Shown here: one piece after another, positions 9,207 through 49,638 of the stretch
Numbering within the stretch: position 1 is the first letter of the stretch
Layout of the letters: the number at the start of each line of letters is the position of its first letter
DNA from: Burkholderiales bacterium
GTDB lineage: Bacteria > Pseudomonadota > Gammaproteobacteria > Burkholderiales > Casimicrobiaceae
DNA: 51,025 bases
NCBI GenBank assembly: GCA_025352105.1
Contig: JANXUB010000035.1
Coordinates: 1 to 51,025 of the forward strand
Direction of reading: 5' to 3'
Made by a program: the position numbers and the translations under genes
Notes under the pieces: generated by a model
Database searches by the model: none
The model's input: the letters and a program-made list of their open reading frames with translations, nothing else
What the model was told of the DNA's origin: nothing

Positions 9207-9404
9207 CAATGCACCTCTTCGACGTTCGAGTGACAAACAAATATGCCGCAGAAACGCAATCACGGCATATTCTGTAACGCTTCGTAGCCCTGTGGGTGGG
9301 TCGCAATAACCCGAGTCTACGAGTGTCCAATTCATCGGTAGTCTAATTTGTCGCTAGGTCAAAGTACGATCTGTATTGCAGCCCACGCCCGCCAAACTCC
9401 CTCC

Positions 9405-10046
9405 ATGCTCACCCTAGACCAAACCCTCCTCTACCTCCCCGCCGTGGCGATCATCATTGCTATTCCGGGGCCGGACATGTTGTTGTCGCTTTCGCGTGGG
9501 CTGACACAGGGGCGCGGCGCGGGCTTTGCGCATGCGTTTGGCGTAGGACTGGGCGTCATGGCGCATTCGCTGCTGGCGGCGCTGGGCGTGAGCGCACTGC
9601 TGACGGCCAGCGAAACGGCGTTCTGGGTGATGAAGCTGGCCGGTGGGGCGTACCTGATTTATCTTGGCGTGCAGCAGTGGCGCAGCTCTACTGACACCAC
9701 GCTGATCAATGCGCCCGGACCCACAAAAGCTCCGCTCACCACAATTTTCTGGCGCGGCATGCTGAGCAATCTGCTGAACCCAAAAGTGGCGCTGTTCGTG
9801 CTCGCCTTCGTGCCGCAGTTTGTGCAGGCTGGCCCCGAGGCGTCGAGCCCGCTGGTGCAGATGCTCCTGCTCGGCGCAATCTACTCGATGCTGACGGTGA
9901 TCGCATACGGCGCACTGGGCGCAGCGGCAGGTGGCGTGAGCCGCCGGCTGGCGGCGCATCCGGCCTACATGCGCGGCGTCAATCGCGGCAGCGCGGGCTT
10001 GTTCGTGGCGTCCGGCGCAGCGGTTTTATTGCTGGATCGGCGCTAA
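9405..10046 (+). CDS. LysE/RhtB family amino acid or metabolite exporter
   Basis: A 213-residue inner-membrane protein with about six hydrophobic segments, normal size for the family. The N-terminal signature AIPGPDMLLSLSRGLTQGRGAG is the conserved RhtB/LysE motif around GPD. Family members export amino acids, homoserine lactones or related small molecules. The start is the ATG of MLTLDQTLLYLP; an upstream ATG in the same frame at 9348 would add 19 atypical residues. The last codons and TAA lie inside the left end of repeat copy A, which shares about 20 of 24 bases with the 3' end of the ABC permease gene at 49516. Confidence 0.88.
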   Translation: MLTLDQTLLYLPAVAIIIAIPGPDMLLSLSRGLTQGRGAGFAHAFGVGLGVMAHSLLAALGVSALLTASETAFWVMKLAGGAYLIYLGVQQWRSSTDTTLINAPGPTKAPLTTIFWRGMLSNLLNPKVALFVLAFVPQFVQAGPEASSPLVQMLLLGAIYSMLTVIAYGALGAAAGGVSRRLAAHPAYMRGVNRGSAGLFVASGAAVLLLDRR

Positions 10047-10163
10047 CAGCTTTTCGTTTAATTCCAGGATTAACGAGGGCTAATCGCCGTTTTATCAGTT
10101 TGTCGACTATTTCCTTATTTTGCGTTTAGCCCAGACAAAATAAGGCATTCAGCAAAAAGCTGT
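10041..10163 (+). repeat. Structured intergenic element, copy A
   Basis: This copy starts at the lysE stop codon. Pairing segments: outer ACAGCTTTT (10046-10054) with AAAAGCTGT (10155-10163); hairpin TTAAT-TCCAGG-ATTAA (10058-10073); inner GGGCTAA (10077-10083) with TTAGCCC (10126-10132). TCGACT sits at 10103 and TTCA at 10148. The same motifs occur at nearly the same distances in copies at 24830, 32318 and 49511. The next 215 bp up to the cupin gene (10164-10378) show no gene and no clear promoter. The element may be transcribed as the lysE 3' end or the cupin leader. I cannot assign it to a known RNA or repeat family. Confidence 0.75.
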
Positions 10164-10378
10164 ATGGCGGTCACTGGACAAATCAACCATTTCTTGCGCT
10201 GCGGCAACGCGGTTCTCCGACAAGCTCAGGGCGACCACGCCGCACTCGTCAGGCCCGCCGCATTATTTAGCGCGGACAACTCTCTTTCAACTCATGCCTG
10301 TTGGATAGGACGACAATCACGCGCAGCGGCCGCGCACCTGAAAATGCGTTGGCCGCATCAAAAAATCAAGGAGTTGAC

Positions 10379-24829: not shown

Positions 24830-24954
24830 GCTACAGCTTTATCCTGTAACCTATATTTTACTTGGGCTAAGTCGTTAAAAGTAGTTGTCTCGACTTTAGG
24901 TTAATTGTTGTTTCAGCCCCAATGCAATCGACGTTTCACGCCAAAGCTGTTAGC
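24830..24954 (+). repeat. Structured intergenic element, copy C
   Basis: Outer pair GCTACAGCTTT (24830-24840) with AAAGCTGTTAGC (24943-24954); hairpin GTAA/TTAC (24846-24861); inner GGGCT (24864-24868) with AGCCC (24915-24919). TCGACT begins at 24890 and TTCA at 24935. Spacing matches the copies at 10041, 32318 and 49511. This copy has the longest outer stem. It fills most of the 328-bp gap between the divergent VOC and coxG genes; no clear -35/-10 pair was identified in the rest. Confidence 0.72.
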
Positions 24955-25055
24955 TTCCGAGATGGCTCGACATGTCATCACCGCCGCATCGCGATAATGG
25001 ACTCAACGTGATAAACATCGTGCTGGAACAAGCAGGAAATTGAAATGGAATTGAC

Positions 25056-25679
25056 GTGGAACTAGCCGGAGAAAAACTCATCGCGGCAACGCCGTCAGAA
25101 GTGTGGCGCGCGCTGAATGACCCAGCAATACTTGCCAATTGCATTCCCTCTTGCGAAAGCGTCGAGCGTTTGTCTGAGTCGGAAACACACGCTCGCGTGC
25201 TGCTGCGAATTGGCCCGGTTCGGACGCTGTTTGTCGGCAAAATTTTGATGAGCGACATTCGGCCCGATGAAGGTTGCACGATGGTTTTTGAAGGCTCCGG
25301 CGGCAACGCGGGATTCGCCAACGGACGCTCCACGGTGCAGCTCGCGCGTGACGGCGAGGCAACCCGATTGTCGTACACCGCGTCAGCCTCCGTCGGCGGA
25401 AAACTTGGACAGGTCGGTGGTCGAATGATTGATGCGTTTGCCAAGAAAATGGCGGACGAATTTTTTGGTAATTTGCAGACAGCGTTGGCGGGCGGCACAC
25501 CCGCACCGGGTGACGACGTAGCGCCCACTACTGTTGCGGTAGCTGCCTCGACCATAGGCCGCTCAACTGCCCTGCCAAGCGATGGCAATCCGCAAAGCGA
25601 AGGCACGCGAGTGCTCTGGTTTGCCTTGGGCGTAGGGGCCACTGCCTTTGGCTTCTGGCTCGCGCATTTGCTGCGCTAA
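25056..25679 (+). CDS. coxG: CoxG family protein (SRPBCC fold, membrane-anchored)
   Basis: A 207-residue CoxG-type protein. The START-like SRPBCC domain (1-145) opens MELAGEKLIAATPSEVWRALNDPAILANCIPSC, matching the usual CoxG N-terminus. A Pro/Ala/Thr-rich linker follows, then a C-terminal membrane helix (VLWFALGVGATAFGFWLAHLL). CoxG proteins help maturation or membrane attachment of CoxMSL-type enzymes. The start is a GTG. An ATG at 25045 in another frame opens a six-codon frame that overlaps this start, which could affect initiation. It heads the second molybdenum hydroxylase operon. Confidence 0.9.
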   Translation: MELAGEKLIAATPSEVWRALNDPAILANCIPSCESVERLSESETHARVLLRIGPVRTLFVGKILMSDIRPDEGCTMVFEGSGGNAGFANGRSTVQLARDGEATRLSYTASASVGGKLGQVGGRMIDAFAKKMADEFFGNLQTALAGGTPAPGDDVAPTTVAVAASTIGRSTALPSDGNPQSEGTRVLWFALGVGATAFGFWLAHLLR

Positions 25680-32317: not shown

Positions 32318-32437
32318 CACAGCTTTTTCACAAAGCCCTCAGTCACTTGAGGCGTAGCGGCCAATAAATGCAATAGTCGACCTCAGGCGTTTATGTCGTA
32401 TACGCCCCGATAAAACGCCATGTTCAGTGAAAAGTTG
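32318..32437 (+). repeat. Structured intergenic element, copy D
   Basis: Outer pair CAGCTTTTTCAC (32320-32331) with GTGAAAAGTTG (32427-32437), including a G-U pair; hairpin CCTCA-GTCACT-TGAGG (32337-32352); inner GGCGTA (32351-32356) with TACGCC (32401-32406). TCGACC begins at 32377 and TTCA at 32423. Spacing is the same as in the copies at 10041, 24830 and 49511. Its 3' arm abuts the GAAAGGG ribosome-binding site of the first permease gene, so folding could affect that gene's translation. Confidence 0.75.
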
Positions 32438-32451
32438 AAAGGGTAAAAATC

Positions 32452-33369
32452 ATGAAAACCAGCGCCAGCACGCCGTGGTTCTTTCTGGCCCCGAACGTGA
32501 TCGTGATCGTGTTGTTCACGTTCATCCCGATTGCAATCAACTTTTATTACGCGTTCACCGGCGGCGTGAATCTGTATCCGACCCAGCGCCCCGGCGTCGG
32601 TGTCGAAAACTTCTCAACGCTACTCGAATGCGGCTCGTACTTCGATCCGTCGTCTTGCCGCAAAGACGTGTTCTGGCAATCGATCTGGAACACCGCCAAG
32701 TACGCGATCTTTCAGGTCTCGTTGATGGTGCTCTTCGCGCTGATCACAGCGGTCGTACTTAACCGAAAAATCATGGGGCGCGGCTTTTGGCGTGGCGTGT
32801 TTTTCTACCCTGTTCTGCTCTCACCCGTCGTTGTCGCTCTCATCTGGAAATGGATATTGCAGCGCGACGGTTTGCTCAACGCGGCGATGGTTGCGGTGGA
32901 TGCACATCCCGTGCTCTGGCTCGCGGAACCGGGCTGGGCGTTCTTCTGGGTAACGTTTGTTTCGATCTGGGCGCACATGGGTTTCTACACACTCATTCTG
33001 CTCGCCGGTTTGCAGGCGATTCCGGCTGATCTGTACGAAGCGGCGCAGCTCGACAAAGCCTCGCCGTGGCGCTCGCTGACGAAGATTACGCTGCCGCTGT
33101 TGATGCCCAATTTGCTGGTCGTCGTTGTGCTCGCGATGATCAAAGCGGTGCAAATATTTGACGAAGTTTTCGTGCTCACAGGCGGCGGCCCAGGCTCGGC
33201 GACCACCTTCGTCGTGCAGTTCATCTATCAAACCGGCTTTGTCGAACCAGTTCGGCTGTACGGCATCGCCGCAGCAGGTTCGCTCATGCTGGCCCTCGCA
33301 CTGGTCGCGCTAACGCTCTTGCAATTGAAGTTGTCGAATGCCGAAAAGGCCGGGGAGCGCGTGAAATGA
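32452..33369 (+). CDS. Carbohydrate ABC permease, MalF/UgpA-like
   Basis: A 305-residue inner-membrane permease of the CUT1 type with about six membrane segments. The EAA loop is DLYEAAQLDKASPWRSLTKITLPLLMPN. GAAAGGG lies 8 nt before the ATG. It ends overlapping the second permease gene by 4 bp. The 264-bp gap before it holds a REP pair and structured element D. Confidence 0.93.
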   Translation: MKTSASTPWFFLAPNVIVIVLFTFIPIAINFYYAFTGGVNLYPTQRPGVGVENFSTLLECGSYFDPSSCRKDVFWQSIWNTAKYAIFQVSLMVLFALITAVVLNRKIMGRGFWRGVFFYPVLLSPVVVALIWKWILQRDGLLNAAMVAVDAHPVLWLAEPGWAFFWVTFVSIWAHMGFYTLILLAGLQAIPADLYEAAQLDKASPWRSLTKITLPLLMPNLLVVVVLAMIKAVQIFDEVFVLTGGGPGSATTFVVQFIYQTGFVEPVRLYGIAAAGSLMLALALVALTLLQLKLSNAEKAGERVK

Positions 33370-47559: not shown

Positions 47560-48335
47560 TTGAAATCGAAGGCCTCTGCAAGCGCTTCACGGTTCGCGAG
47601 CGCACCTCGGCGTTTGCGTTGAAAGCAAGCACACGAATCGTGACCGCAGTGGACAACGTAAGTTTTAACGCGAAGGACGGTGAAGTCACGGGCCTGCTCG
47701 GTCCAAACGGTGCTGGAAAGACAACAACGCTGCGTATGCTCTCAACGCTCTTGTCGCCCGATGCGGGCAGCGCGCGAATTGACGGCGCAGACCTCGTCAG
47801 CGAGCGCGCGAAAGTGCGTCAACGGCTGGGCGTTCTGGGCGACGCAAAAGGCTTGTACTGGCGGCTCACGGCGCGTGAAAACATCAACTACTTCGGTCGC
47901 TTGCAAGGCTTGTCGTTGCCGGACTCAGAGCGGCGCACCCGCGTTCTCATTGACGAACTCGGGCTGCACGATCTCGCAGATCGTCCGACCCAGGGGTATT
48001 CGCAGGGCGAGCGTATGAAAGTCGCCATTGCGCGGGCACTCGTTCACAACCCGCAAACGGTATTGCTCGATGAACCTACCAACGGCCTCGACATCATGTC
48101 CACACGCAGCATGCGCGAGCTGATTCGCGGGCTCAAAGCCCAGGGCAAATGCGTGCTTTTTTCAAGTCACATCATGCAAGAAGTCGCCGCCCTGTGCGAC
48201 CGCATTGTGATTATCAATAAAGGGCGCGCCGTGTTCTCGGGCACACCGCAAGAAGTGCTCGCAACGACCGGGCTCGACAGCCTTGAAGATGCGTTTGTGA
48301 AGCTCATCGGCAGCGAAGAAGGGTTGTTCGCATGA
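47556..48335 (+). CDS. natA: ABC exporter ATPase, NatA-like
   Basis: A 259-residue ABC ATPase with Walker A GPNGAGKTT, signature YSQGERMKVAIARALVHNP, Walker B TVLLDEPTNGLDIMS and switch His in SSHIMQE. The motif order and NGLD form fit NatA/CcmA-like exporters. The gene is coupled by 4-bp overlaps to the hydrolase before it and the permease after it. The frame runs upstream inside the hydrolase gene; the ATG of MIEIEGLCKRFTV is the real start. Confidence 0.9.
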   Translation: MIEIEGLCKRFTVRERTSAFALKASTRIVTAVDNVSFNAKDGEVTGLLGPNGAGKTTTLRMLSTLLSPDAGSARIDGADLVSERAKVRQRLGVLGDAKGLYWRLTARENINYFGRLQGLSLPDSERRTRVLIDELGLHDLADRPTQGYSQGERMKVAIARALVHNPQTVLLDEPTNGLDIMSTRSMRELIRGLKAQGKCVLFSSHIMQEVAALCDRIVIINKGRAVFSGTPQEVLATTGLDSLEDAFVKLIGSEEGLFA

Positions 48336-49516
48336 GCGCATTCTCGCTGACCCGTTTATCAATCGTCGCCCGCAAGGAAATCGTTGATCTGCTGCGAGAT
48401 CGCAAGAGCATTTTTCTGGCACTGTTCGGTGTTGCGATTTCCGGGCCACTGGTCGTCTGTCTTCTGTACTTCGTCGCGCAGTCGATTCAGGGCCGTATCG
48501 AAAAGATCACCGCGCCCATCGTAAACGCGCAATTTGCGCCGGATTTGGTGCGCTACCTTGAACGTCGCGGCATCAAAGTGGAAGCCGATCCGCCAGACTA
48601 TGAAGCGCGCGTAAAAAATGGCGAGCTTGATGTCGCACTGGTGGTCGAGCCAAACTTTGCCGAAGCGCTCGCCAGCGGCCGTCAAGCGACGATCACGCTG
48701 GTCACGTTGTCGAGCCGCGAGCGCTCTGCGCCAATTGCCGGACGACTCACTGGCGAGGTGCGCGGCTATGCCACGATGATCGGGAACGAACGCATGATTT
48801 TGCGGGGCATCGCCCCGGCGGTCGCGCGACCGGTTCAATTGGAAGAACTTGATCTGTCAAGCGTCGAACAGCGCAGCGCACGTTTCCTGCAAATGATGAG
48901 CTTCTACGCACTGTTTGCCGGGCTCATGGGCGCAATCGCGGCGGCGCTGGATGTGACCGCTGGGGAGCGCGAACGGCAGACAATGGAGCCTCTGCTTACA
49001 ACGCCAGTCGCAGTCGCGGAGCTTGCGCTCGGAAAGTGGCTGGCAGTGGCCTTAGTCAACCTGCTGGCAGTCACAGCGTCGATGCTCGGCTTTTTAATCG
49101 CGTTGAAATTGGTGCCGCTTGGAAAACTTGGGCTGCCGTTTAATTTCGGAGCGCGCGAGTTCACCGGTTTCATGGCCGTCTTGATTCCGTTTGCGTTCAT
49201 GGTGCCCGGCGTCTTGCTCGCTTTTGGCGCAGCGGGCAAGACGGCGAAAGAAGCGCAGAGCTCACTCACACTGGCCGTGTCGCTCGTTGGCCTGCTGCCG
49301 CTCATCAGCTGGTTGCGGCAGACCAAAGCCCCGTGGTGGGATGTGTGGGTGCCGGTGAACGGGCAGTTTGCCGTGCTCTCGAAGGTGCTGCGTGCCGAGG
49401 CGATTCTGCCGCTCGAGTGGGCCGCGATGTGGGCCGTGCCTGCGCTGATTTGCCTCGTGGCGCTCATCGCTTTCGCGCGGCGGCTGGGTGATGAGAAAAT
49501 GCTGGCAGGGCGCTAA
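48332..49516 (+). CDS. natB: ABC exporter permease, NatB-like
   Basis: A 394-residue ABC-2 type permease. One N-terminal membrane helix (FLALFGVAISGPLVVCLLYFV) is followed by an extracytoplasmic domain of about 150 residues and then about five C-terminal helices, the NatB/YhaP layout. It contains AGERERQTMEPLLTTPV, the conserved ABC-2 loop. With NatA it would export sodium or an unknown small molecule. Its last codons and stop lie in the left end of repeat copy B. Confidence 0.9.
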   Translation: MSAFSLTRLSIVARKEIVDLLRDRKSIFLALFGVAISGPLVVCLLYFVAQSIQGRIEKITAPIVNAQFAPDLVRYLERRGIKVEADPPDYEARVKNGELDVALVVEPNFAEALASGRQATITLVTLSSRERSAPIAGRLTGEVRGYATMIGNERMILRGIAPAVARPVQLEELDLSSVEQRSARFLQMMSFYALFAGLMGAIAAALDVTAGERERQTMEPLLTTPVAVAELALGKWLAVALVNLLAVTASMLGFLIALKLVPLGKLGLPFNFGAREFTGFMAVLIPFAFMVPGVLLAFGAAGKTAKEAQSSLTLAVSLVGLLPLISWLRQTKAPWWDVWVPVNGQFAVLSKVLRAEAILPLEWAAMWAVPALICLVALIAFARRLGDEKMLAGR

Positions 49517-49630
49517 CAGCTTTTTAGGTTAAACGACCTTTAAACGAGGGCTGATAGCAATTTTTGCCCGAAGTCGACTTATAATTTTTTCGCCTCCAGC
49601 CCCAACGTGTTGGTTCTTTCGCCATAAAGC
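49511..49630 (+). repeat. Structured intergenic element, copy B
   Basis: Outer pair GCTTT (in ACAGCTTTTT, 49516-49525) with AAAGC (49626-49630); hairpin AGGT-TAAACG-ACCT (49526-49539); inner GGGCTG (49548-49553) with CAGCCC (49597-49602). TCGACT begins at 49574 and TTC at 49618. Distances match the copies at 10041, 24830 and 32318 within 1-2 nt. It lies between convergent natB and lrp genes, so here it can only be a 3'-end or independent element, not a leader of a coding gene on its strand. Confidence 0.75.
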
Positions 49631-49638
49631 GGATGACC

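Follow-up and report, generated by a model that had tools for sequence, protein, structure and literature searches.

Results

A two-fold symmetric site present in four copies

The window, a stretch of 51,025 nucleotides and one of the 231 contigs that make up a 4,498,972-bp genome, carries four copies of a DNA site of 117–120 bp with two-fold symmetry. We consider it reasonably probable that these copies, together with an estimated several hundred others in the genome, serve to dock an architectural protein that recognizes a specific sequence, wraps DNA and has a changing specificity (the putative reader).

We used a sequence-only model without base pairs (R1), built from 38 genome-wide copies and their reverse complements, to search the window. 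Run unfiltered and with E allowed up to 5, the model matched four places and no fifth, and all four copies described in a first-pass annotation of this DNA are present where it had placed them. The training set included sites A and C and left out B and D, and R1 recovers B and D although it was untrained on them. The matches run from 10045 to 10164 (site A, 70.8 bits), 24832 to 24951 (site C, 67.6 bits), 49515 to 49630 (site B, 51.7 bits, E 3.9e-15) and 32319 to 32436 (site D, 34.2 bits, E 1.2e-9). The near-fixed spacing of landmarks reported in the annotation is also borne out, as 27 of the 38 copies with exact ends are 118 bp long and the others 117–120 bp.

Each site reads ACAGCTTT, an inner box (GGGGCTA in the window genome), an A/T patch and a central AAAGTCGACTTT, followed by the mirror image, the whole being two half-sites placed head to head. 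The half-site logo, made from the 27 copies whose length is exactly 118 bp, has ACAGCTTT at positions 1–8 (invariant there through selection of the logo set), T at 13, A at 16–17, C at 21 and T at 25, and further in GGGCTA at 32–37, A or T at 45–48 and 55–56, and the centre GTCGAC at 57–62; some positions, for example 43, have near-zero information. Because R1 and the matrices used below learned from copies whose ends match ACAGCTTT exactly, the conservation of this box is overstated.

Site A (10046–10163, 118 bp, dyad-symmetric and assigned no strand) is placed by R1, a PWM scan and the ORF list, and it overlaps the TAA stop (10044–10046) of ORF 9348–10046 by one base, the final A of the stop being the first base of the site. 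On the plus strand, the left end box ACAGCTTT lies at 10046–10053 (logo positions 1–8) and the left inner-box core GGGCT at 10077–10081 (positions 32–36). The central dyad GTCGAC, again without strand, occupies 10102–10107 (positions 57–62), and the right half, on the minus strand, has its inner-box core at 10128–10132 (AGCCC on the plus strand, the mirror of positions 32–36) and its end box at 10156–10163 (AAAGCTGT on the plus strand, the mirror of positions 1–8). ORF 9348–10046 is one of two LysE-type exporter genes, 72% alike, the other lying near 38664 on contig C120 of the same genome, and a site stands directly downstream of each.

Site C (24833–24950, 118 bp, no strand) is placed by R1, the PWM scan, the ORFs and its ortholog in genome G015, and at its right end it meets the TAA of minus-strand ORF 24950–25642. 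Opposite-strand ORFs compete in 24950–25679 (24950–25642 on the minus strand, 25056–25679 on the plus strand), and the gene beside site C is unsure. The minus-strand ORF is 75% identical to G015 in protein and 80% in DNA, and since the protein identity is the lower of the two it may be non-coding. Site D (32319–32438, no strand; R1 and PWM scan) lies upstream of ORF 32452–33369 and, at 34 bits, is a decayed copy. Site B (49516–49633, no strand) is placed by R1 and by its sequence, the PWM scan giving 49517–49633; its left end box starts on the final A of the stop codon TAA that closes ORF 48332–49516, and its inner box is displaced by one base.

One consensus read twice

The first-pass annotation held that paired segments of the element co-vary and took this to suggest selection on structure. 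The left and right arms of the same copy are identical at a fraction of 0.462, equal to the 0.457 found between left and right arms of different copies (27 copies); the within-copy and cross-copy values in four other genomes are 0.463/0.455 (n = 20), 0.506/0.511 (n = 25), 0.425/0.435 (n = 13) and 0.424/0.463 (n = 15), and no arm–arm covariation was found in these sets of 13 to 27 copies. Among ~1000 pairs internal to a half-site, none exceeds the chance maximum (largest z 3.39 vs 3.7; sets of 27–60). Halves of type T1, the window's type, have a weak excess on one antidiagonal (i + j = 55), only a quarter of whose cells pair. With no covariation of arms and no clear local pair, selection on base pairing is not supported. 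The stems looked compensatory because both arms fit one half-site consensus: the inner and outer stems GGGCTA/TAGCCC and AGCTTT/AAAGCT are that consensus itself, the supposedly co-varying first hairpins are pairs found in single copies, and GGCGTA/TACGCC is a pairing peculiar to the decayed copy D. The site is symmetric because a single consensus occurs in it twice, as in a site for a two-fold symmetric protein.

The comparison with Rfam 15 that the annotation proposed gave 0 matches for the window at gathering score and 0 for a 401-bp segment surrounding site A at a threshold of E 1. What survives of the new element described there is that it is repeated, has fixed spacing, is under selection, has many more copies and matches nothing in Rfam; its base pairing and its continued mobility as a MITE are not supported. 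The inner box is itself palindromic in type T2, and by eye it looks palindromic, with different letters, in genomes G006 and G010; a palindromic inner box suits a symmetric dimer site no less well than a hairpin. In T1, a palindrome test found no clear dyad within the half-site.

A structured RNA at transcript 3' ends, be it a terminator, an RNase site or a processed RNA, would fit the six ORF stops that end exactly at a site's first base (exact-end set) and the numerous sites close to 3' ends. Divergent gaps also hold sites, however (6 of the 25 intergenic sites of the unbiased pieces described below), structure prediction folds the four copies differently, and neither covariation nor an Rfam match was seen, so that this reading has next to no chance of being correct.

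Copy number, distribution and placement

The further copies that the annotation called for exist. The exact-end pattern occurs at 38 places in the window genome and the same pattern backwards at 0, which excludes chance. Of 1163 first-look candidates in the window genome, R1 scored 150, and every one of these has E ≤1.5e-15, which gives at least ~75 places (both strands). A scan with matrices, for which the reversed-sequence control gave 6 hits in 255, found 27 sites in 308,025 bp made up of the window and pieces of three other contigs not chosen for sites. These numbers imply ~390–400 sites per genome, one per ~11 kb.

Within the genus, 16 of 17 genomes match R1 at E 0.001 or better, among them G008 with 16 matches (probably 8 places) and G009 with 17 weak ones, whereas G016 has 0 matches at that threshold. 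A genome of the same genus with none and another with few indicate that the system can be lost. G016 and G008, of 2.5–2.6 Mb and sisters on a gyrA tree, combine few or no sites with the lack of a Y1 transposase match, and the loss of sites and of Y1 may both belong to genome reduction. None of 43 genomes sampled from six other genera of the family matches, under stricter filters and in a search that another consensus would escape. The exact-end pattern was also found in database stretches: at least 90, of at least 105 among the matches listed, come from eight Burkholderiales, Betaproteobacteria or Pseudomonadota MAGs, and 15 from other organisms were set aside, 12 of which were inspected by eye and lack the inner motif. 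A phage-borne element was rejected, as the pattern occurs in 0 stretches of viral contigs. A link to the origin or terminus was likewise rejected, since the best ~75 sites of the one-contig genome G004 spread along its whole length, at 5–11 per 0.5 Mb (counted by eye, the origin not located).

In the unbiased 308 kb of the window genome, 25 of the 27 sites fall in called gaps between genes; the figures for G006 and G001 are 15 of 27 and 12 of 16, from a crude gene caller and with genuine gene overlap possible. Sites inside a called ORF number 2 of 38 in the window genome's exact-end set and 3 of 24, 2 of 25, 2 of 13 and 2 of 18 in other such sets. Sites of the window genome are spaced more evenly than random intergenic placement would have them (CV 0.59 vs 0.86, P 0.013, with the half-sites in pieces L226 and L231 left out). 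Neither G006 (P 0.13) nor G001 (P 0.057) is significant alone, and the three genomes pooled give P 0.007. Gaps that hold a site in the unbiased pieces are tandem in 16 cases, divergent in 6 and convergent in 3, against 60, 28 and 23 in the background; with no marked preference, a link to gene orientation was discarded.

Old sites retained in place and under selection

Among the 74 distinct sites of the window genome no pair is more than 66% alike, and nearest-neighbor identity has a median of 0.61 and a maximum of 0.66. The low likeness of copies and the retention of orthologous places speak against a MITE that is still moving, an option that the annotation had offered. The place orthologous to site C in G015 holds a site, as do those orthologous to site D in G015 (62 bits), G004 (43 bits) and G011 (36 bits) and to site A in G005 and G003. 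In G004 and G011 (L182 and L181), the left half of site A stands alone beside the orthologous gene. Half-sites also occur in L226 and L231 of the window genome.

Across 150 ordered comparisons of orthologous gaps anchored at both ends, both genomes have a site in 40, neither in 106 and one of the two in 4 (2 + 2). Every pair enters this set twice, once per direction; a few sites, D among them, contribute to more than one pair; and a large share of the loci had been retrieved because a site lay somewhere on them. Restricting the comparison to unbiased query pieces gives 3 with both, 0 with one and 16 with neither (P 0.001), two of the 3 being site D compared with two genomes. Anchored sites of the window genome are present in G015 in 7 of 8 cases and in G012 in 0 of 1. 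Sites do come and go; at one apparent empty site (L029 of the window genome against L165 of G012) the alignment is ambiguous.

Seven orthologous pairs between the window genome and G015 are identical at 185 of 210 high-information positions (88%) and at 158 of 392 low-information positions (40%); in non-orthologous pairs the values are 87% and 33%. At 4-fold sites in eight ORFs near C and D, identity to G015 is 931 of 1702 (55%), a count that includes ORF 24950–25642, whose frame is doubtful and without which the fraction is ~0.54. The motif is kept by selection, and the remaining bases of the site have drifted near saturation.

An old MITE could have spread in the genus ancestor, perhaps with TA target duplications, its copies later becoming protein sites. 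Such an origin would fit the terminal inverted repeats, TAA as the commonest triplet over site ends (29 of 148) and the occurrence of the element in one genus only among the sampled genomes, but TA flanks both sides of just 5 of the 74 sites and near-identical copies are absent from the same set. We hold it to be unlikely; being a statement about origin, it can be true together with protein docking sites.

Site types switch with positions unchanged

Two matrices, trained on the same genomes that they sort, assign each site to a type by the better score. The T1 inner box is GGGGCTA and the T2 box CGACCG..CGGTCGTT, while another species has GCCC.ATTTaATTGGGC. Most sampled genomes hold a single type: T1 in the window genome (91 of 91 sites, 74 of them distinct), G015 (45 of 45), G004 (12 of 12) and G003 (3 of 3), and T2 in G012 (28 of 28), G007 (35 of 35) and G002 (19 of 19). 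Mixtures were seen in G011 (7 T1 and 3 T2) and G005 (9 T1 and 1 T2). Further variants, with boxes like GCCC.ATTTaATTGGGCGA and GCCAtaTAAAATAaGGC, occur in G001 (16 sites), G006 (27) and G010 (8), where the reversed control gave 0; the end box is weaker in G001 and G006.

In all four anchored cases, the G002 counterpart of a T1 site of the window genome, at the orthologous position, is of type T2. On the gyrA DNA tree, G007 and G002 are sisters placed next to the window genome and G015 (joining fork 91/92), and G012 groups with G004 and G011. The well-supported branches of this tree, which is of one gene and omits G005, G013 and G014 (gyrA split over contigs), call for at least two changes of T2, counted with only G012 and G007 labeled T2, and at least three of T1. 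Judged from this tree and the types of the sites, whole-genome site sets have switched type together more than once, their positions unchanged. Copying of one site over the others fails to explain such a switch because the sites remain unlike each other; a change in the putative reader can explain it.

The inner boxes also bear on a REP/BIME or REPIN reading, in which two inverted REP-like palindromes were spread by a RAYT transposase and are now fossil. Inverted imperfect palindromes are clear in T2, where each site has two inverted palindromic inner boxes, are seen by eye in G006 and G010 and are unclear in T1; copies number hundreds, and copy number and placement fit in the window genome. 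Y1 transposase matches are present in 15 of the 17 genomes, the exceptions G016 and G008 being those with no or few sites, a link that is confounded because both are also among the smallest genomes. RAYT genes are described as always flanked by two REPs (in the part of PMC2817692 drawn on here) and REPINs as showing compensatory changes (likewise PMC3116915), but 4 of 26 Y1 loci (of 44 matches) have a site or part of one within ~1.5 kb (L262, L263, L296 and L305), which is about the chance expectation at one site per 11 kb, in a check made with the T1 model, which scores other types low. Compensatory changes were not seen in the sites and copies are at most 66% alike, and we regard this reading as quite improbable. 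At L262 (contig C194 of the window genome, ~1263–1350), an IS200-like Y1 element abuts a left half-site, as if inserted into a site.

Helix-phased A/T suggests wrapping

A/T phasing at 9–11.5 bp has a mean z of 3.09 in T1 (113 sites), 3.69 in T2 (80 sites) and 2.01 in G006 and G010 together (30 sites, including 22 of the 27 from G006 after removal of weaker ones), against 0.42, 0.12 and 0.23 in control DNA a few hundred bp away; the phasing follows in part from the fixed motif letters. The averaged A/T profile has its peak at a period of 9.5 bp, at low resolution. At positions 45–48 and 55–56, the site calls for A or T and hardly distinguishes the two, which points to reading by shape. Phasing of ~10 bp over a site of this length suggests that the DNA would be wrapped on a protein, as for the E. 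coli gyrase motif.

The wrapping protein might then be DNA gyrase, the first rival of a specific protein or else its partner, with the sites serving as strong, sequence-improved gyrase sites like E. coli BIME-2, spaced so that they set supercoil domains. As described in the part of the Topo-Seq report drawn on here (PMC6379681), the E. coli gyrase motif is symmetric and spans 130 bp, with a center of 36 bp and flanks whose G/C content has a phase of 10.75 bp; it is called degenerate and probably shape-read, and gyrase cuts are enriched at BIME-2 elements. The length, symmetry and phasing of our sites resemble this motif as so described, with two-fold symmetry and A/T phased at 10–11 bp over 118 bp (cf. 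about 130), and gyrA is present in 17 of 17 genomes. Unlike in the degenerate E. coli motif, however, an 8-bp end box lies 52–59 bp from the center; the inner box varies among lineages; and gyrase is present in G016 as well, leaving the absence of sites there unexplained. Because the boxes are strong and base-specific, we prefer a specific architectural protein, and gyrase as the reader seems rather unlikely.

Discussion

The gyrase, REP/RAYT and old-MITE readings are all weaker than that of a specific architectural protein. As we picture it, a putative two-fold symmetric protein or complex would wrap or strongly bend ~118 bp per site, making base-specific contacts at the end boxes, the inner boxes and the center, with bendable A/T patches between contacts, roughly every ten bases. 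Some 400 such sites, one per ~11 kb and mostly between genes, would be passed down at fixed places and maintained by selection; a shift in the reader's specificity would bring a change of inner box to a genome's sites without moving them. We infer a single reader protein that wraps DNA and has a role in chromosome architecture (supercoil or loop boundaries), not in gene control. It is possible, if on balance doubtful, that the whole forms a genus-specific chromosome-organizing system with ~400 wrapping sites as domain boundaries, a putative reader respecified several times and sites rewritten in place.

It has long been asked whether the boundaries of bacterial supercoil domains are fixed by sequence. 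For E. coli, a figure of 400–500 supercoiled domains is given (in the part of PMC3820752 drawn on here), and our estimated site number is of the same order, so far a coincidence of numbers only. Several hundred sites relettered together in place amount to a natural experiment for finding the reader: its gene would be expected to branch in line with the site types instead of the species phylogeny, and it may be missing from G016 and G008. If true, the chromosome-organizing system would offer a bacterial example of a DNA-binding protein co-evolving with its sites across the genome. No paper describing the element was found among titles and abstract openings in the open literature.

Several known systems resemble these sites in part. 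Integron attC sites have a similar length and symmetric arms and lie close to stop codons; in contrast to them, the sites described here have arms without covariation and occur once per 11 kb among ordinary genes, with no cassette array in the window. The ERIC/IRU repeat, described as a 127-bp MITE with an orientation-dependent effect on transcripts (PMC2229807, in part), is likewise of similar length, intergenic and bounded by inverted terminal repeats, and differs, as far as that description goes, in that the present sites are a symmetric motif without recent copies. BIME, REP and REPIN sequences with their RAYT genes are similar in that palindromic units lie outside genes as inverted pairs, in hundreds of copies and with lineage-specific sequence (PMC2817692 and PMC3116915, in the same parts), whereas our copies are at most 66% alike in the window genome, have arms without covariation, are not regularly near Y1 genes and keep their orthologous places. 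Like the E. coli gyrase motif as described in PMC6379681, finally, the sites are two-fold symmetric, about 120–130 bp long, phased with the helix in A/T versus G/C and found genome-wide; unlike it, the sites have strong base-specific end and inner boxes, kept places and an inner box that varies by lineage.
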